Assembly (NCBI GenBank): GCA_902528215.1
Contig: CABZRR010000011.1
Span: forward strand, 1 to 42,709
Source of the DNA: an uncultured SAR86 cluster bacterium
GTDB taxonomy: Bacteria; Pseudomonadota; Gammaproteobacteria; Magnimaribacterales; D2472
Length of the DNA: 42,709 bases
Direction: 5' to 3'
The position numbers were made by a program, and so were the translations under genes. Positions 2,140 to 38,760 of the stretch are shown piece by piece. The notes under the pieces are model-generated. The model was not told where the DNA came from and made no database searches. It was given only the letters and a program-made list of their open reading frames with translations. How positions within the stretch are numbered: the first letter of the stretch is position 1; the number at the start of each line of letters is the position of its first letter.

Positions 2140-3472
2140 CAATACAAAAGATTTATTAACGTTCCTTCAGCTTGACTCTGAATCAAATTTACCAATTAGT
2201 AATTTTCAAATAGATTCAAGGAAAGTAAAAAAGAATTCAGTTTTTTTTGGCCTAACTGGTTCAAAAGAGGATGGCAGCTTTTATGCGGAAGATGCTATCA
2301 ATAAAGGAGCATCTTTAGCAATTATAAAAAAGAGAAAAATTCCAATTTCTACAGTTTTTTCACCAAAAATTATTTCAGTTAAAAGTCCTGAAAAAATTTT
2401 GATTAATTCGGCCAAGATGGCAATTGAAAGATATCAAGGGATAGTCATTGGAGTTACTGGCAGCAACGGAAAAACAACAACCAAAACCATTTTAAATACT
2501 TGCATAAAAAATAGTTATGGTACTCACCAAAACTACAATAATGAAATTGGCTTACCATTGTGTGCTTTGGAGCTGGACTCACAAAATAGCACGGCAATTT
2601 TTGAGATGGGTGCAGCTAAACCAGGCGATATAGATCTGCTATCAAAAATAATTAAGCCGCATATTGGCATTATTACCCACATAGGCCATTCTCATTTAAA
2701 GGGATTGAATTCGGTTAAGGGAGTCCTTCAGGTAAAGTCCGAGCTTATAAAAAATATTAAGACAAATGGCTCCGCTATTGTTCCAAATGGTCAATATGTT
2801 GGTTACTGGAAAAAAATGAGGACTGACATTGCATTTTATACGTTTGGCAAAGATCCCACATCATCTTTTTTCCCATCTCAAATTAAGATGACAAAAGAAG
2901 GCTTATCCTTTTTCATTGAATCAGCTCATTTAAAGAAAAAAGTCCAAATAAAAACAAAACTTATAGGGATGCATAACGTATTTAATATTCTTGCTTCTTT
3001 TGCAGCAATTCATGCTGCTAGGTTAAACACGAAGGACTTTACAGATGGCTTGAAAGGGCTCAAAAATTCACCTCAACGTTTAGATTTAAAATTATGGGTT
3101 AACCAATCAACAGTTATCGACGATTCATATAATGCCAATCCTGATTCTATGAAAGCTGCATTAGATGTTTTGTGTCAATTTCAAGGAAGAAAGGTTGCAA
3201 TCCTTGGGGATATGAGAGAGTTGGGCAGATTTAGAAAAAAACTACACATTGACTTGGGAGACTATGCCAAAATACATGGGGTTAATTGTTTGATTGGATA
3301 TGGAGATTTAATACGTCATACAGTATTTGCATTTGGCAACAATGGTTTTTTCTTTAAAGATAAACTGGAGTTAGTAAATTTCTTGAAAAAAAAACTTAAA
3401 GGAAAAGAGAAAATACTATTAAAAGGCTCAAGATCAATGAAAATGGAAGAAATTCTAAACTTATGGAAATGA
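2126..3472 (+). CDS. murF: UDP-MurNAc-tripeptide:D-Ala-D-Ala ligase MurF
   Basis: Last cytoplasmic Mur ligase: it joins D-Ala-D-Ala (made by Ddl, also in this cluster) to the UDP-MurNAc tripeptide. The 448 aa compare with 452 in E. coli. The N-terminal domain has the DSRKVKKNSVFFGL segment typical of MurE/MurF. The P-loop is GVTGSNGKTTTK; EMGAAKPGDI, the GHSHL region and DDSYNANPDSMKAAL in the C-terminal domain are all characteristic. The start ATG lies 14 bases inside murE, and mraY follows one base after the stop, as expected for a coupled dcw operon. Nothing looks broken. Confidence 0.96.
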   Translation: MKLINNTKDLLTFLQLDSESNLPISNFQIDSRKVKKNSVFFGLTGSKEDGSFYAEDAINKGASLAIIKKRKIPISTVFSPKIISVKSPEKILINSAKMAIERYQGIVIGVTGSNGKTTTKTILNTCIKNSYGTHQNYNNEIGLPLCALELDSQNSTAIFEMGAAKPGDIDLLSKIIKPHIGIITHIGHSHLKGLNSVKGVLQVKSELIKNIKTNGSAIVPNGQYVGYWKKMRTDIAFYTFGKDPTSSFFPSQIKMTKEGLSFFIESAHLKKKVQIKTKLIGMHNVFNILASFAAIHAARLNTKDFTDGLKGLKNSPQRLDLKLWVNQSTVIDDSYNANPDSMKAALDVLCQFQGRKVAILGDMRELGRFRKKLHIDLGDYAKIHGVNCLIGYGDLIRHTVFAFGNNGFFFKDKLELVNFLKKKLKGKEKILLKGSRSMKMEEILNLWK

Positions 3473-5627: not shown

Positions 5628-6723
5628 TCGCAATAACATACTAATTGTTCTTCCATATTTCTCTTTGTTGTTTATCGGTTTGGTAATGGTTGCATCTTCT
5701 AGCATTTTTATATCTGAGGACATCTATGGGACTCCTTTTCATTTTGCTTCAAGGCAAATAATTTTTTTTATTATTGGCGTCTTTGCAACAATAATTGCTT
5801 TAAGCATCCCATCAAATTTATTTTTAACATTAGATTGGGCAATTTTAATTGGTTCTTTGTTGTTACTCATCGCCCTTTTTTTTCCTGGGGTTGGCACAGA
5901 GGTCAATGGAAGTCTCAGATGGATTAGAATTGGCCCAATAAATATTCAACCCTCAGAAGTAAGCAAGATTGCTTTAGTAATATATATTTCAGGTTATTGC
6001 GTCAGAAGACTAAGTGAAATTAATACTTCATTGGGTTTTGTAAGGCCTTTAGTTGTGTTGGCTCTTTTTGGGCTTCTAATTATGTCCCAACCTGATCTTG
6101 GATCAACACTTGTAATTGGAGCATTGGTAATTGCAATATTGTTTTTTGCAGGAATTTCATTTTTGCAGTTTTCACTTTTAATCTTGCTTATGGCAGCATT
6201 GGCAGCTGTTGCTGTATACCTAGAACCATATAGGTACATAAGATTTATTTCATTTACTGAGCCGTTTGAGAATTTTTATGGGCCTGGATGGCAATTATCA
6301 AATGCACTAATTGGCATCGGGCGGGGCGAATGGTTTGGTCTAGGTTTAGGGAATAGTCTTCAAAAAAATCTATATTTGCCTGAGCCACACACTGATTTCA
6401 TTTTTGCTGTAATTGTTGAAGAGTTTGGATTATTTGGAGGATTAATTGTAATTTTTTTATTTGCATTATTAATTCTAGGCATTATCAGGACATCAATAAA
6501 AGCACTAGAGCTAGGAAAGTTATTTCAAGGGTTGCTTGCTTTTGGAGCAGGTATTTTGATTGCAATACAAGTAGTGTTTAATATAGGAGTAAATCTTGGA
6601 ATCTTACCCACAAAGGGTTTAACTCTGCCCTTTATAAGCTATGGGGGCACAAGCTTAATTATATTTATGTTTTTAATGGGCCTAGTTTTAAGAATTAATT
6701 TTGAAAATAAGTTGATAAAGTAA
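5620..6723 (+). CDS. ftsW: SEDS peptidoglycan polymerase / division protein FtsW
   Basis: Polytopic inner-membrane glycosyltransferase that polymerises lipid II at the septum with FtsI. It has 367 aa and about ten membrane segments. SEDS signatures are visible: LRWIRIGPINIQPSEVSKIAL, MSQPDLGST, the loop GPGWQLSNALIGIGRGEWFGLGLG, LPEPHTDFIFAVIVEEFG, and ILPTKGLTLPFISYGGTS near the C-terminus. The long extracytoplasmic loop aspartate region (EPHTD) is intact. The ATG lies inside the end of murD (8-base overlap), and the stop shares one base with the murG start (TAATG). FtsW rather than RodA is supported by the dcw position. Confidence 0.96.
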   Translation: MIDRNNILIVLPYFSLLFIGLVMVASSSIFISEDIYGTPFHFASRQIIFFIIGVFATIIALSIPSNLFLTLDWAILIGSLLLLIALFFPGVGTEVNGSLRWIRIGPINIQPSEVSKIALVIYISGYCVRRLSEINTSLGFVRPLVVLALFGLLIMSQPDLGSTLVIGALVIAILFFAGISFLQFSLLILLMAALAAVAVYLEPYRYIRFISFTEPFENFYGPGWQLSNALIGIGRGEWFGLGLGNSLQKNLYLPEPHTDFIFAVIVEEFGLFGGLIVIFLFALLILGIIRTSIKALELGKLFQGLLAFGAGILIAIQVVFNIGVNLGILPTKGLTLPFISYGGTSLIIFMFLMGLVLRINFENKLIK

Positions 6724-25991: not shown

Positions 25992-27008
25992 ATGTCAGAT
26001 AAAGAAAAAAATTTAAGTGAAGCAATTTCTCAGATAGAAAAGCAATTTGGGAAAGGGACAGTTATGAAGATGGGAGATAGGGAAATAGAAGATATACCCT
26101 CTGTTTCAACTGGCTCGATTGGTTTAGATATAGCCCTTGGAATAGGAGGTTTACCAAAAGGAAGAGTCGTAGAAATTTTTGGTCCAGAATCATCTGGAAA
26201 AACAACTTTAACACTTCAAGCAATTGCAGAATGTCAAAAGGCTGGTGGTACAGCAGCATTTATTGATGCTGAACATGCTCTTGATCCAAATTATGCTGAG
26301 AAATTAGGAGTTAATGTTGATGAATTGCTTCTTTCGCAGCCTGACACTGGCGAACAAGCATTAGAGGTAACTGACATGCTCGTAAAATCTGGAAGTGTTG
26401 ACTTAATTGTTGTTGATTCAGTGGCTGCTTTAACTCCTCGTGCTGAGATTGAAGGCGATATGGGCGATCATCACGTTGGATTGCAAGCACGTCTTATGTC
26501 ACAAGCATTAAGAAAAATAACAGGAAATATTCAACGATCGAATGCGATGGTTATTTTTATTAATCAGATAAGAATGAAAATCGGTGTTATGTTTGGAAAT
26601 CCTGAAACTACTACTGGAGGCAACGCCCTTAAATTTTATTCTTCTGTACGTTTGGACATTCGCAGGATTGGCGCTGTAAAAGAGGGCGATGAAGTTGTCG
26701 GTAACGAAACAAGAGTCAAAGTAGTTAAAAATAAAGTTTCACCTCCATTTAAACAAGCTGAGTTTCAGATAATGTATGGAGAAGGTATCAATACAGAAGG
26801 AGAAATAATAGAGCTTGGCCAAAAACTTGAATTGGTTGAAAAATCCGGGTCTTGGTACAGTCATAATGGAGAAAAAATAGGACAAGGCAAAGTTAATGCC
26901 AGCAAGTTCTTAAGAGAAAATGCCAAAATCAGAGATGCGCTCGTAAAAGAAATAAGAAAGGCTTATATACCTTCAGCAAAGAAAGCTACAAAAAATAAAT
27001 CTTATTAA
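25992..27008 (+). CDS. recA: Recombinase RecA
   Basis: DNA strand-exchange ATPase and coprotease for LexA. It has 338 aa. Walker [51 protein letters not shown] (Walker B), loop L1 [33 protein letters not shown] (L2) and a C-terminal domain with a short basic tail are all intact. Its own SOS-controlled promoter precedes it. recX, which follows recA in most gammaproteobacteria, is missing; a thiolase with its own promoter comes next. Confidence 0.98.
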
Positions 27009-29898: not shown

Positions 29899-31662
29899 AT
29901 GCGTTCACATTATTGCGGAAATATTAATAGCTCAGATATTGGAAGTGATATTGAGATCTCTGGATGGGTTCATAAGAGAAGGGACCATGGTGGCGTAATT
30001 TTTCTAGACATTCGTGATTTACATGGCATTGTACAGGTAGTTTTTAATCCTGATTTAAAAGAAATATTTGAAATTGCAGATTCTTGTAGAAGTGAATATG
30101 TTGTAAATATTAACGGGAAAGTTAGAAAGAGAATCGAAGGTGCTATAAACCCAAAAATGTCTACGGGTGAAATAGAAATAGAAGCAACTTCTTTAACTAT
30201 TTTTAGCTCGGCAGTGACCCCACAGTTTCCATTAGATGATTATCAAGATGTGAATGAAGATATAAGATTAAAATATAGATTCATAGATTTGAGGCGGCCT
30301 GATGTAAACCAGAGATTAGTTCAGAGGTCTAAAATAACTTCAGAAATCAGATCAATCTTAGAAAAACATAATTTTCATGAAATTGAGACACCTATTCTTA
30401 CAAAAGCTACTCCAGAGGGAGCGAGGGATTACTTAGTTCCAAGTAGGGTCCATCCAGGGGAATTTTTTGCGTTACCTCAATCCCCACAACTATTTAAACA
30501 ACTTCTCATGATTGGTGGCTTGGATAGATACTACCAGATAGCTAAGTGCTTTAGGGATGAGGATTTGAGGGCTGACAGACAGCCAGAGTTTACTCAAGTG
30601 GACATAGAAGCATCCTTCATTACTAATGAGGATATTTTTGAAATTGCAGAGGATTTAGTTACAACTTTGCTCTCTAAGTTTACAGACTACAAAAAGATCT
30701 CTGTCCCAAGAATTACCTATGCAGAATCCATTGAAAAATATGGATGTGATAAACCGGACTTGAGGATTCCTTTGCAACTTAAAGATATTTCTGAGCTTGT
30801 AAAGGATGAGGAATTTAAAGTATTTTCTGGTCCAGCAAATGATCCTTTGTCAAGGGTAGTTGCCTTAAAAGTTCCTGAAGCCGCATCAATGACCAGAAAA
30901 ACAATAGATCAATATACTGATTATGTTGGTAAGCTTGGAGCAAAAGGTTTGGCATATATAAAAGTAGTTGAGCTTGATTCTGATAATGGACTTCAATCGC
31001 CAATCTTAAAATTTTTTAAAAAAGAAACAGTGGAATCAATTTTAAGTTCATTGGATGTAAAAAATAATGACATTATTTTTTTTGGTGCAGGAAGTGCCAA
31101 AATAGTTAATTTATCAATGAGCTCATTAATCAAAAAGCTTGGCGAAGATCTAAATTTAATCAGTTCAACTTGGGCTCCATGTTGGATTGTTGACTTTCCT
31201 ATGTTTGAAAGAAATAAAGATAATAATCTGACTTCATTACATCATCCATTTACTTTGCCAGCTGTAACAGTTGATGAACTTAAAAATGATCCAGAAAACG
31301 CGTTGGCATTCGCTTACGATTTTGTTTTAAACGGTTACGAGCTCGGAGGAGGGTCTTTGAGAGTTTATGAAAAGTCTATGCAAAAAGAAATATTTAAAAT
31401 TTTGGGAATTTCAAATGAAGAAGCTAATGAAAAATTTGGATTCTTGCTATCAGCTTTGGCATCTGGATGTCCTCCTCACGGTGGTATTGCATTTGGCTTA
31501 GATAGAATAATTATGTTGTTATCTGATACAACTAATATTCGAGATGTTATTGCTTTTCCCAAGACACAAAGTGCCTCATGTTTGTTAACAGAGGCACCAA
31601 GTGTGGTGTCTGATGATCAGCTTGACGAGCTTAATATCTCATCTAGTCTTAACACGGAGTAG
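29899..31662 (+). CDS. aspS: Aspartyl-tRNA synthetase, bacterial type
   Basis: Class II synthetase of 587 aa (E. coli 590). It has an N-terminal OB-fold anticodon domain ([20 protein letters not shown]), motif 2 ([18 protein letters not shown]), the bacterial GAD insertion between motifs 2 and 3, and motif 3 ([13 protein letters not shown]). The length and insertion mark the D-type bacterial enzyme. It is followed after one base by yebC. Gene order fmdB-aspS-yebC is standard for gammaproteobacteria. Confidence 0.97.
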
Positions 31663-31663
31663 T

Positions 31664-32401
31664 ATGGCTGGACATTCCAAGTGGGCTAACATCAAACATC
31701 GTAAAGCTAGGCAGGATGCATCTAGAGGCAAAATTTGGACTAAGGTTATCAGAGAGATTACTGTAGCAGCCAAGGATGGCCCAGATCCTGCAGATAATCC
31801 AAGACTAAGACTAGCATTAGATAAGGCTAATGCAGCTAATATGCCAAAAGATACTATTAAGAGAGCAATTCAAAAGGGTTCAGGAACCGGAGAAACTGGC
31901 GCACTTGAGGAATTAGTTTTTGAGGGCTATGGACCAAATGGAGTAGCCATTCTTGTTGAGACAATGACAGATAATCGAAATAGAACAGTTGCTGACGTTC
32001 GCCATGCTTTTTCAAAATTTGGAGGTAATATGGGGACCGATGGTTCAGTTGCATATCTTTTTAATAAATTAGGAATAGTTCACGTAGAAACAACTTATGA
32101 AGAAGATAAAATTATGGAAATAGCCCTAGAGGCAGGTGCAGATGACTTTACCGTCCTGGACGATTATTATGAAATTATTACCTCTCCGGGAAAATTAAGT
32201 AACATTATTGAGGTTTTAAAGGAAAAAAATATTGAATCTTTAGTGGCTGAAAATACTATGCGGGCAGAAACTTTAGTGAATTTAGATCAAGAAGCATCAG
32301 AAAAAGTTTTAAAAATTATGAACTTCATGGATGATCTTGATGATGTTCAAGAGGTACATACTAATGCAGAGTTTCCAGATAACTTTACTATTGATGAATA
32401 A
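31664..32401 (+). CDS. yebC: YebC/TACO1-family translation-associated protein
   Basis: 245 aa (E. coli 246). Start MAGHSKWANIKHRKARQDA, then NMPKDTIKRAIQKG, EGYGPNGVAILVE, NRTVADVRHAFSKFGG and a C-terminal acidic part, all typical. ATG 31664 is fixed by the family start and by GGAG 5-8 bases upstream. A longer in-frame reading into aspS is not credible. Family members have been described as DNA-binding regulators and, more recently, as helping ribosomes through proline stretches. Normally ruvCAB follow; here a PDDEXK-like protein does. Confidence 0.96.
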   Translation: MAGHSKWANIKHRKARQDASRGKIWTKVIREITVAAKDGPDPADNPRLRLALDKANAANMPKDTIKRAIQKGSGTGETGALEELVFEGYGPNGVAILVETMTDNRNRTVADVRHAFSKFGGNMGTDGSVAYLFNKLGIVHVETTYEEDKIMEIALEAGADDFTVLDDYYEIITSPGKLSNIIEVLKEKNIESLVAENTMRAETLVNLDQEASEKVLKIMNFMDDLDDVQEVHTNAEFPDNFTIDE

Positions 32402-32403
32402 TA

Positions 32404-32826
32404 ATGGCTATAAATTCTAGAACCAAAGGCGCTAATTTTGAAAGAGAAATTGGCAATATGCTTGTTGAGCAGTTAGATTTAAAACAGCCGGTTAAAAGGA
32501 TACTAGAGCAAACACGAACAAAAGAATTGCCTGATTTGAAACTAGGGCGATGGTGTCTTGAATGTAAAAGATATGGGGACGGAGTTGAACCGTCTCAGGA
32601 TTGGTGGGATCAAGTTTTATCTGCTACTGGTGAGGGAGAGTTTCCTGCATTAATTTACAAATTTAATAGAAGACCAATTAAAGTTAGAATTCTGGCTGGA
32701 AGTTTAATACCAGAACTTGATTTTTCTCCAATGACAATCGATTTAATGTGGGATGATTTTGTAGAAATTCTTCGTTACCTTTTCCAAGTAGACATTGAGC
32801 AGCATGAAGCCTCGTTTCAAGTGTAG
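32404..32826 (+). CDS. PDDEXK nuclease, Hjc-like putative Holliday junction resolvase
   Basis: 140 aa with no signal peptide. The N-terminal TKGANFEREIGNML has the Gly and Glu13-Arg14 of the Hjc/PDDEXK start; LPDLKLGRWCLECKRYG supplies Asp44, Glu53 and Lys55 (PD-x8-E-x-K); QDWWDQVL may supply the following conserved Gln and aromatic residues. Resolvase-like proteins of phages and archaeal Hjc share this pattern. It lies 2 bases after yebC and overlaps ybgC by 23 bases, exactly where ruvC-ruvA-ruvB stand in relatives. The fold call is firm from motifs; activity on Holliday junctions is inferred from position and motif, and a phage-derived nuclease of other use remains possible. Confidence 0.72.
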   Translation: MAINSRTKGANFEREIGNMLVEQLDLKQPVKRILEQTRTKELPDLKLGRWCLECKRYGDGVEPSQDWWDQVLSATGEGEFPALIYKFNRRPIKVRILAGSLIPELDFSPMTIDLMWDDFVEILRYLFQVDIEQHEASFQV

Positions 32827-33220
32827 TGATTTTTTTTGCAGAGTCTTCGTTGAAGATACTGATTTTCAAGGCTTCGTTTACTATGCAAACTATCTAAAAT
32901 ATTTTGAAAGAGCACGTTCACAGTTCTTAATTGAGAATAATTTGTCTCAAGTTAATGCCAAGACTCATGGTAATGAGTTGTATGTTGTTAAATCTGTTGA
33001 ACTGACTTACTGTTATCCAGCAACATTAGAGGATGAATTAATTATCAAAACCGAAATAGAGCTAGTCAGTAAAGCAAGAACCTTATTTCATCAATCTGTT
33101 TTGAACTCAAAAAATGATACACTCATTTGCGAGGGGGTTGTTGAGGTTTGCTACATTGATAATGATTCAGGAAAACCAAAAACATTTCCTGATAACTTAT
33201 TAAATTTATTTAAAGATTAA
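32804..33220 (+). CDS. ybgC: YbgC-type acyl-CoA thioesterase
   Basis: Hotdog-fold thioesterase associated with the Tol-Pal cluster. It has 138 aa (E. coli 134). Signature VFVEDTDFQGFVYYANYLKYFERARSQFL in two parts holds the catalytic Asp; the usual AGGVV after DTD is FQGFV here. ATG 32804 lies inside the preceding nuclease gene; a TTG at 32795 is possible but less likely. The gene ends one base before tolQ, so it belongs to the tol operon. Confidence 0.93.
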   Translation: MKPRFKCSDFFCRVFVEDTDFQGFVYYANYLKYFERARSQFLIENNLSQVNAKTHGNELYVVKSVELTYCYPATLEDELIIKTEIELVSKARTLFHQSVLNSKNDTLICEGVVEVCYIDNDSGKPKTFPDNLLNLFKD

Positions 33221-33221
33221 G

Positions 33222-33902
33222 ATGGATGACTTCTCAATAATAGAATTATTTCTTCAAGCAAGTTTAGTTGTTCAGGCAGTAATGGTTATATTACTTATGG
33301 TTTCAATTATTTCTTGGATTGTTATTTTTGAAAGATACTTTAATTTAAATCGGATTAAAGAAGCCAACAAATTATTTGAGGAGCAATTTTGGTCTGGAAA
33401 AGATCTTCATGAAATTTATATAGGCATTGAAGAACAATCTAATGAAGAGTTGATTGGTTCTTTACGAGTTTTTAAGAGTGGATTTGGTGAATTTTTAAGG
33501 CTTAGTGATAGTCAGAAAATTACAATAGAGGATCTTGAAAGTGTTAATAGAGCAATTAGGGTGTCTTTGGCAAGAGAGGAGGAATCGTTAATGCACCACC
33601 TTCCTTTTTTAGCAAACGCTGGATCAGTGAGTCCATATGTTGGATTGTTTGGAACAGTCTGGGGAATTATAAATTCCTTTCAAGGTCTTTCAGATGCAAC
33701 TCAAGCTACCATAAATGCTGTTGCTCCTGGAATTTCAGAAGCACTAGTAGCAACCGCTCTTGGATTATTTGCAGCAATCCCGGCTGTGGTTGCTTACAAC
33801 AGATTTGCATCTGAATCAGACACTCAACTCCAACAATCATCTATATTTGGTGAAGAGCTTGCCAGCATTCTTTATAGACAAACAGTTAAAGCAAAACCTT
33901 GA
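33222..33902 (+). CDS. tolQ: Tol-Pal proton channel subunit TolQ
   Basis: MotA/ExbB-family inner-membrane protein that forms the proton-driven motor with TolR. It has 226 aa (E. coli 230). It shows one N-terminal membrane helix and two later ones, with FLANAGSVSPYVGLFGTVWGIINSF and ISEALVATALGLFAAIPAVVAYN, the family signatures. It powers outer-membrane constriction together with TolA, TolB and Pal encoded downstream. The stop overlaps the TTG start of tolR. Confidence 0.95.
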   Translation: MDDFSIIELFLQASLVVQAVMVILLMVSIISWIVIFERYFNLNRIKEANKLFEEQFWSGKDLHEIYIGIEEQSNEELIGSLRVFKSGFGEFLRLSDSQKITIEDLESVNRAIRVSLAREEESLMHHLPFLANAGSVSPYVGLFGTVWGIINSFQGLSDATQATINAVAPGISEALVATALGLFAAIPAVVAYNRFASESDTQLQQSSIFGEELASILYRQTVKAKP

Positions 33903-37506: not shown

Positions 37507-38760
37507 ATGAGTTCCGTTAAAATATTTTTTGAAAAAATCCCATTGTCCTTTACCAAAAACTCAGCAATCGCAGGATTTTTTTTCTTTTTGGTTTTGTGTT
37601 CTTGGTATATCTTAAGACCTGTTAGAAATGAAATGGCAGTTCAGAACTCTGACATTCTTCCATACTTGCTAGGGATCGGAGCATTGGTCATGCTGTTATT
37701 AAATCCAATTTATTCGTGGCTTGCATCTCGTAAAAATCTTAGATGTGTTCTGACAGGATGCTATCTATTTTTTATCTCAAACTTATTAATGTTCATCATT
37801 TTGTGGGAGGTTTTCAATTACTCCGATGCCATTTGGCTAAGTCAAATTTTTTATATTTGGTGCAATGTATATTCTTTTTTTGTGGTCTCAATTTTTTGGG
37901 TTGTAATTATTAATTTGTTTAGAGGAGATGGAGCAACGAATGTTTTCGGAGTTATTGCAGCAGGTGGATCAATAGGAGCTTTTTTGGGTTCTGAGATTTC
38001 TAAACAATTAGCAGTAACATTCAATGAATCAGGAATTATTTTTTTTACATTGATCGCAATCTTATTTCTTATATCGGCCTTAATAACAGGTTTGATTTTA
38101 TTAAATCGTCTTTCATTTATAGAGGGCATCAATGAAGCTGCTGGAGGAAATAGTTTTGATGGTTTTAAAAATTTAATTTCTTCTTCTCAAATTAGATCAA
38201 TAGGTTTATATATGTACCTATGGACAGCAATGATGACAATTCATTGGATAACATCAATTCAAATTATTAACTCTTGGTCATCGGATGGAGGAGATAGAAT
38301 TATCTTCTTTAGTAATATTGAACAAACAGTAACGTTACTAACGCTTATAACCCAATTTTTTCTTACTGCGGCAATTATAAGACTGGCAACTCCAAGAATC
38401 ATTTTAATGTTTTATGGATTAATATTTTTTGGAGCCTTTGTCGGTTATTTCTTAAATCCAACGATTGGGTACGTGTTTATTATAACTATTGTTTTACGAG
38501 TCTTTGAATATGGAATTAATAAACCAACAAGAGAGGTAGTGTTTAGTTATTTGAAGAAAATGGATCGCTATAAATCTTCGGTTATGTTTGATACTTTTTT
38601 GGTAAGAATGGGTGATTTTTCTGGTAGCGGCTTTATAACTCTATTTTCAAAAGCTTTTGGAGTTGCTTTTTTTTACATCCCATTAATAGCGATTCCCTTT
38701 GCAGGTTTTCTTGCTCTCTTAGGATTAAAGATTGCTCCCGAGAAAGAAATATCCTCTTAA
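37507..38760 (+). CDS. ATP/ADP translocase-like (Npt/TlcA-related) MFS transporter
   Basis: 417-aa membrane protein with about 12 hydrophobic segments and no signal peptide. The start CSWYILRPVRNEMAV, the following short loop, GAAGATNVFGV-like segment (GDGATNVFGVIAAGGSIGAF) and the late RVFEYGINKPTREVVFSYL match the translocase-like MFS proteins found in free-living proteobacteria and distantly related to nucleotide exchangers of intracellular bacteria. The substrate of the free-living members is not established, so ATP/ADP exchange should not be assumed. Single gene; its stop overlaps that of convergent bepA by 4 bases. Confidence 0.78.
   Translation: MSSVKIFFEKIPLSFTKNSAIAGFFFFLVLCSWYILRPVRNEMAVQNSDILPYLLGIGALVMLLLNPIYSWLASRKNLRCVLTGCYLFFISNLLMFIILWEVFNYSDAIWLSQIFYIWCNVYSFFVVSIFWVVIINLFRGDGATNVFGVIAAGGSIGAFLGSEISKQLAVTFNESGIIFFTLIAILFLISALITGLILLNRLSFIEGINEAAGGNSFDGFKNLISSSQIRSIGLYMYLWTAMMTIHWITSIQIINSWSSDGGDRIIFFSNIEQTVTLLTLITQFFLTAAIIRLATPRIILMFYGLIFFGAFVGYFLNPTIGYVFIITIVLRVFEYGINKPTREVVFSYLKKMDRYKSSVMFDTFLVRMGDFSGSGFITLFSKAFGVAFFYIPLIAIPFAGFLALLGLKIAPEKEISS

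Follow-up and report, generated by a model that had tools for sequence, protein, structure and literature searches.

The stretch of DNA analysed here, which we refer to as the window, comprises 42,709 nucleotides and represents contig C11 of a 1.18-Mb, 30-contig SAR86 genome with an estimated completeness of 81%. Its forward strand carries, in direct succession, aspS (29899..31662), yebC (31664..32401), an open reading frame for a 140-aa protein (32404..32826, hereafter NUC), ybgC (32804..33220) and tolQ (33222..33902), the first of the downstream tol genes. recA is located on the same strand (25992..27008; NCBIfam TIGR02012, 555 bits). The products of aspS, yebC (YebC/PmpR) and tolQ (TIGR02796) score above their NCBIfam cut-offs, and the ybgC product passes the cut-off for the YbgC/FadM subfamily (TIGR00051) and misses the stricter one for the ybgC equivalog (TIGR02799). 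NUC begins with an ATG two bases behind the end of yebC at 32401, and its stop codon (32824-32826) lies within ybgC, whose ATG at 32804 results in an overlap of 23 bases. Reading frame, spacing and overlap are exactly as described in a first-pass annotation of this DNA. Elsewhere in the window a 417-aa membrane protein (37507-38760) has no NCBIfam match at 1e-8; by eye we take it to resemble transporters of the ATP/ADP translocase type.

NUC is a conserved gene. A single-sequence search identified it in 87 of the 99 genomes of the window's family (f1), including 17 of 19 near-complete ones and all 10 genera, and a search with the alignment profile A1 found it in 110 of the 121 genomes of the SAR86 order (37/39 near-complete, 20/20 genera). 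Since in addition the catalytic residues Glu13, Asp44, Glu53 and Lys55 are invariant in all 101 SAR86 copies (96 of them distinct), a chance reading frame is ruled out. The reading that some SAR86 lack NUC was also rejected. The 87 family genomes exceed the 79.5 expected from genome completeness, and among nine examined of the 20 genomes without a match (family and order samples together) seven have no yebC match either, one contig ends 23 bases past yebC (G022) and another inside yebC (G023). We read the absence in these nine genomes as missing assembly, a probable cause for the seven without yebC. Named relatives of the gene, at 60-98% identity, comprise 80 records, most of which are labelled SAR86 cluster bacteria and the rest with broader names; these labels are our ground for calling the order SAR86. 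One record, L101 (PAQA01000034.1), is labelled Rhodospirillaceae; it has the SAR86 gene order and a NUC with 65% identity, and the label is probably wrong. Across the class, profile A1 matched 6 of 369 genomes, namely four of the order and, weakly, two outside it (G194 and G286); in the nuclease tree described below, the proteins of these two fall with those of enterobacterial phages.

The position of NUC is as conserved as its sequence. The order yebC-NUC-ybgC was found at 30/30 loci of the f1 sample, at 80/80 named loci (genomes partly shared with the former set) and at 15/15 loci of families f2 and f3; yebC was retained at every locus read. No ruvA, ruvB or ruvC was found in the available flanks of the 80 named loci. 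In family f4 the pair yebC-NUC is present at all five loci, with tolQ downstream in four and no ybgC match between NUC and tolQ in any of the five (L179-L183). At one f4 locus (L180, G104) no tolQ, tolR or tolB match was seen within about 4 kb downstream. The usual gammaproteobacterial arrangement was checked at 20 ruvC-bearing loci, hand-picked among the top-scoring RuvC rows. There, yebC lies upstream of ruvC (at most 0.6 kb) in 18 of 20 and the order yebC-ruvC-ruvA-ruvB-tolQ occurs in 14 of 20; in 12 of the latter ybgC was detected as well, located after ruvB and ahead of tolQ. The first-pass annotation had assumed the order aspS-yebC-ruvC-ruvA-ruvB-ybgC-tolQ for gammaproteobacteria and had noted the absence of ruvC, ruvA and ruvB at the site. 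The assumption is real, and the yebC-ybgC slot of the window is assembled with NUC inside.

RuvC was found neither in the window's 81% complete genome (0/1) nor in the family (0/99) nor in the order (0/121, including 0/39 near-complete genomes). Outside the order it was detected in 217 of 226 genomes of the class (217/229 for the whole class sample); three of the 12 misses are SAR86 and nine lie outside. The search controls were positive in 8 of 14 genomes, as expected because the family is missing from Firmicutes and archaea. RuvB did not reach its cut-off in any of the 99 genomes of family f1 or in a 34-genome sample covering the four families, and neither did RuvA in the 99 genomes of f1. 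Weak matches below the cut-offs were present for RuvB in 98/99 and for RuvA in 88/99 genomes. Degenerate ruvA or ruvB genes were considered as their source and rejected for the window's genome, in which two of the matches (C5:33592 and C5:35214) are DnaX and RecR; the remaining weak matches are all far below cut-off. Contig C5 of this genome carries recR and a recX-like gene. At the corresponding locus (L204, 2089-4775; G000:C5) recX-like, dnaX and recR stand in a row, recR overlaps the end of dnaX, and no open reading frame of at least 100 aa separates the two; ybaB, which usually lies between dnaX and recR, is not present.

A full-length RecG is encoded elsewhere in the window's genome (G000:C1:42187-44094; 680 bits, above cut-off). 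The claim that no branch migration motor lies next to the nuclease holds for the neighbourhood and does not extend to the genome. RecG is above or near the cut-off in 26 of the 34 genomes, above it in 13, and in one (G138) split into two pieces on two contigs. No full-length RecG was found in the other eight (G001, G003, G004, G005, G006, G012, G014 and G020), which represent five genera of family f1 and are each at least 90% complete. Their best RecG matches fall into frames roughly 1000-1100 aa long, and judging from that length we take these for Mfd.

At the protein level, NUC scores 28.8 bits against PF24608 PDDEXK_15 (“Phage putative PDDEXK endonuclease”), barely above the cut-off of 27, and matches phrog_244 at E 1.1e-10; all 41 members of the diverse alignment A2 hit the two families with E-values of 1 or lower. 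The PDDEXK pattern given in the first-pass annotation (Glu13-Arg14, Asp44, Glu53-x-Lys55) is found at those positions. The codons of Glu13 (motif I, 32440..32442), Asp44 (motif II, 32533..32535) and Glu53-Cys54-Lys55 (motif III, ExK, 32560..32568) specify Glu, Asp, Glu53 and Lys55 residues that are invariant throughout A2 as well as in the SAR86 copies, and the same is true of R6, K8, G9, E13, R32, Q36, D44, E53, K55 and Q70 across SAR86 and phage rows. The invariant Glu - Asp - ExK set and a predicted fold that matches PDDEXK structures place NUC in the PD-(D/E)XK nuclease superfamily. Among Pfam matches up to E 10 there is no Hjc (PF01870), RuvC (PF02075), RusA (PF05866) or RecU, PF24608 being the sole match, and NUC is not filed as a PF01870 member. 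Profile A1 has no PDB match up to E 10, and a NUC profile reached the archaeal Hjc 1gef only at E 0.43, behind a ribosomal L25 chain.

A first structure model from 19 close rows (pLDDT 76) gave mixed folds and no PDB match below 1e-3 in Foldseek, and Hjc/Hje already appeared in its first six VIA-align rows. The broader 41-row alignment was used afterwards and gave a model with pLDDT 88.6 and pTM 0.85. Foldseek ranks 1-12 for this model are Hjc-type archaeal resolvases, a single chain being below 1e-3 (E 8.6e-4) and TM-scores to Hjc being about 0.45. VIA-align ranks 1-8 are likewise Hjc/Hje (Z 9.6-8.7), with 1ob8 at Z 9.6 (rmsd 2.9, 100 aligned), 1gef at Z 9.5 (rmsd 2.8, 99 aligned) and 2wcw at Z 9.3 (rmsd 3.0, 103 aligned). 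Other folds follow from Z 7.5 down: SPARDA chains (7.5), SSO0001, a Cas4 protein (7.1), and RecU (6.0-5.6). Among predicted viral structures 24 matched the model below 1e-3, most of them unnamed, with two labelled Holliday junction resolvase among the named ones. NUC is thus predicted to have the Hjc fold, and its catalytic layout is that of Hjc, as the first-pass annotation had noted for the motifs; the substrate cannot be read from a fold.

Archaeal Hjc and Hje act as stand-alone resolvases without RuvAB. They (PF01870; 1gef, 1ob8, 2wcw) are the best fold matches of NUC and have its catalytic layout in common, but there is no significant sequence match, and the C-terminal helical part of NUC is longer. 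RuvABC shares with NUC the genomic slot and the proposed task, whereas the protein family is unrelated and no RuvAB motor was found alongside NUC. RusA is a phage-borne resolvase that is also able to act without RuvAB; in contrast to it, NUC has a PDDEXK motif and a predicted Hjc-like fold, although PHROGs labels phrog_244 “RusA-like Holliday junction resolvase”. That label is ill-suited to the members seen, which carry PDDEXK motifs and have no listed RusA Pfam match. RecU, a PDDEXK resolvase, takes the role of RuvC in the Firmicutes, where RuvAB is retained and RecU is encoded away from ruvAB (PMC3403352). NUC, in contrast, occupies the ruvCAB slot itself without detected RuvAB, and RecU lies about 3 Z units below Hjc in the fold comparison (Z 5.6-6.0). 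Thermus phage Tth15-6 encodes Hjc_15-6 (PDB 7bgs, 7bnx), a phage-borne archaeal-type resolvase with the same E - D - ExK motif set. This enzyme is reported to cut junction DNA and to spare linear lambda DNA, and a protein of Thermus phage TSP4 is 96.1% identical to it (PMC8805305). The TSP4 protein matches phrog_244 at E 4.1e-5, has phrog_23036 as its best PHROG and stays below the PF24608 cut-off; SAR86 NUC itself has no match to 7bgs at E 10 or better. The two also differ in whom they serve, Hjc_15-6 a phage and SAR86 NUC, as we propose, a bacterial chromosome.

More distant relatives of NUC (29-40% identity) are found in 12 phage records and at 18 IMG/VR loci; the latter came from an alignment-based search, and no relative was confirmed when IMG/VR was scanned with the NUC sequence alone. 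All four records read with SAR86-type phage relatives carry recombination or replication genes nearby: a Sak-like protein and an SSB in phage C72C1, a Cas4-type exonuclease, RNase H and a helicase in PSTCR4, a PD-(D/E)XK nuclease, an SSB and a helicase in CRP-811, and a Sak4-like protein, an SSB, a ligase and a Cas4-type exonuclease in K9PH25C2. In phage C72C1 (L209, OQ984150.1) the NUC homologue is readable at 6001-6420, where the deposited annotation gives other frames. One SAR86 genome (G013) contains a second NUC-like copy, 42-43% identical, on contig C4 (L207, G013:C4:49000-55400; 3017-3436). Its surroundings are phage-like in order (a 313-aa protein, the nuclease, a 199-aa protein and a primase/helicase-like protein) and resemble IMG/VR locus L134, where the first protein is weakly like lambda exonuclease; the cassette is possibly a SAR86 phage or prophage. 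In a nuclease tree of 45 rows, built without archaeal rows, a branch (99/98) sets the 18 SAR86 rows apart, and their neighbours in the tree are phage rows. Of the earlier wording, a “phage- or archaeal-type” nuclease, the archaeal part describes the best fold match and the phage part the position in the tree.

Nine genomes outside SAR86 were RuvC-negative. Five of them have no yebC match and two a contig end inside yebC; in a further one (G257) yebC is present, with no ruv match in the 14 kb read, which are partly masked. The remaining genome, G223, is 1.1 Mb in size, 98% complete and belongs to another family of the class. It shows the gene order yebC, a 104-aa nuclease, ybgC and tolQ, with no ruv match by tblastn in 18.6 kb. 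This nuclease scores 37.2 bits against PF24608 and 19.9 bits against PF01870 Hjc, just short of the cut-off of 21.1; it matches phrog_244 and also PDB 7bgs (Hjc_15-6; E 8.6e-5 over 41 residues). In the nuclease tree it falls elsewhere, grouped with Geobacillus phages and Roseobacter phage CRP-823 on a different branch (100/98). In the Roseobacter phages CRP-811, with the SAR86-like type, and CRP-823, with the G223-like type, the nuclease gene has nearly the same location, ahead of genes for a PD-(D/E)XK nuclease, an SSB and a helicase, which suggests that both types share the same job. A host tree based on four housekeeping proteins, with 32 of 34 loci retained, unites the SAR86 rows in one group (100) and joins to them, again with support 100, the ruvCAB-bearing genome G346 (L184); G223 lies across this SAR86-G346 branch. 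Given that SAR86 forms one group and that its ruvCAB-bearing neighbour attaches to it, the swap of NUC for ruvCAB is most simply placed on the SAR86 stem.

Our analysis supports NUC as the chromosomal Holliday-junction resolvase of SAR86, a phage-cassette gene that replaced ruvC-ruvA-ruvB on the stem of the order and has been inherited vertically since; we put the probability of this reading at roughly 0.8. The non-orthologous displacement of RuvABC by one nuclease, as proposed in the first-pass annotation, is thereby supported. Of the two findings that would speak against it, a resolvase-unlike PDDEXK structure did not turn up, and neither did an intact ruvCAB elsewhere, given that no RuvC was found in this genome or its relatives and that RuvA and RuvB did not reach their cut-offs in the genomes searched. 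Cleavage of junctions by SAR86 NUC is inferred by analogy. In principle, incomplete assembly or divergence past detection could make ruvABC seem absent, as the window's genome is 81% complete and weak RuvB and RuvA matches are widespread. We nevertheless consider this scarcely credible, because RuvC was not found in near-complete genomes either, because by completeness the chance of missing a universal gene in all 99 genomes is about 10 to the -75, because two of the weak matches in the window's genome belong to other genes, and because the usual ruvCAB site is assembled and occupied by NUC. A more serious alternative is that NUC is a phage nuclease domesticated chiefly for a different task (flap or fork processing, or anti-phage defence), RuvABC having been lost by streamlining in favour of another resolvase or of none and the slot being a mere landing place. 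PDDEXK folds are indeed many-functioned, and Cas4 and SPARDA chains come next after Hjc in the fold list. Yet Hjc chains top both the Foldseek and the VIA-align lists, phrog_244 and the named viral structural matches are labelled Holliday junction resolvases (most viral matches being unnamed), and the same slot has been taken in RuvC-negative G223 by another branch of the family. Defence genes usually do not show an invariance of catalytic residues as seen here through the whole order. We regard this alternative as unlikely.

The number of replacements is a separate question. The presence in G223 of a second branch of this phage family, in the slot that NUC takes in SAR86, makes two swaps probable, one in SAR86 and one in the G223 lineage. 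A single replacement in a common ancestor of both, followed by divergence, would account for the shared slot and the shared broad family (hhalign E 1.9e-11), and the host-tree position of G223 is itself weakly supported (46-47). Against it, a tree forced to hold the SAR86 and G223 nucleases in one clade is worse by 73 log-likelihood units (AU p 2.4e-5). TSP4 was left out of this test, the tested group was named once the tree had been seen, and the 100-140-aa proteins carry little signal. Moreover, ruvCAB-bearing G346 goes with SAR86, with G223 across that branch. A single event hence appears improbable to us, and two independent swaps remain the preferred reading.

Under the preferred reading, the ruvC, ruvA and ruvB genes that lay between yebC and ybgC would have given way, on the SAR86 stem, to one gene out of a phage recombination module, ruvCAB being lost before, with or after the capture of the phage resolvase, and the captured gene would have been passed on vertically through the order. 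The retained RecA is the strand-exchange protein that produces Holliday junctions. By analogy with archaeal Hjc and phage Hjc_15-6, NUC may bind the four-way junction as a homodimer, and Glu13, Asp44, Glu53 and Lys55 together with Mg2+ would place nicks in a pair of opposed strands. The nuclease would do so without RuvAB loading or guiding it, and the junction might be moved by RecG where present, or by RecA itself. The direction of transfer from phage to host, the order of gain and loss, the dimerisation and the partnership with RecG are all inferred.

A further-reaching picture, which we put forward tentatively and as somewhat less than an even bet, is that bacterial chromosomes have on at least two occasions given up all of RuvABC for one Hjc-like resolvase of phage type, placed in the same yebC-ybgC slot, that the five SAR86 genera without a found RecG run late recombination on a small nuclease without a dedicated branch-migration motor, and that reuse of the slot links YebC to junction resolution. 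Later work on YebC concerns translation. A link between YebC and RuvABC was proposed earlier from gene neighbourhood and co-occurrence (PMC3403352).

The same paper, a 2012 survey, gives RuvA and RuvB as missing in less than 2% of sequenced bacteria, mostly small-genome parasites (PMC3403352). The present case is a free-living marine order without detectable RuvABC and with a phage-type enzyme in its place. In the open-licence literature we found no report of an Hjc-type enzyme as a chromosomal replacement of RuvABC and no paper joining SAR86 with RuvC or the Holliday junction; one apparent match (PMC6133358) was discarded, its terms occurring in the reference list and “ruv” being an author's name. 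The type of enzyme is already known from phages and archaea, and what we rate as new is its proposed use as a chromosomal replacement of RuvABC. SAR86 are abundant marine bacteria. They form a natural experiment that asks whether a bacterial chromosome can rely on a stand-alone Hjc-type enzyme; the probable second swap in the slot of G223 provides a replicate, and the SAR86 genera in which RecG was not found allow a test of whether a branch-migration motor is needed.
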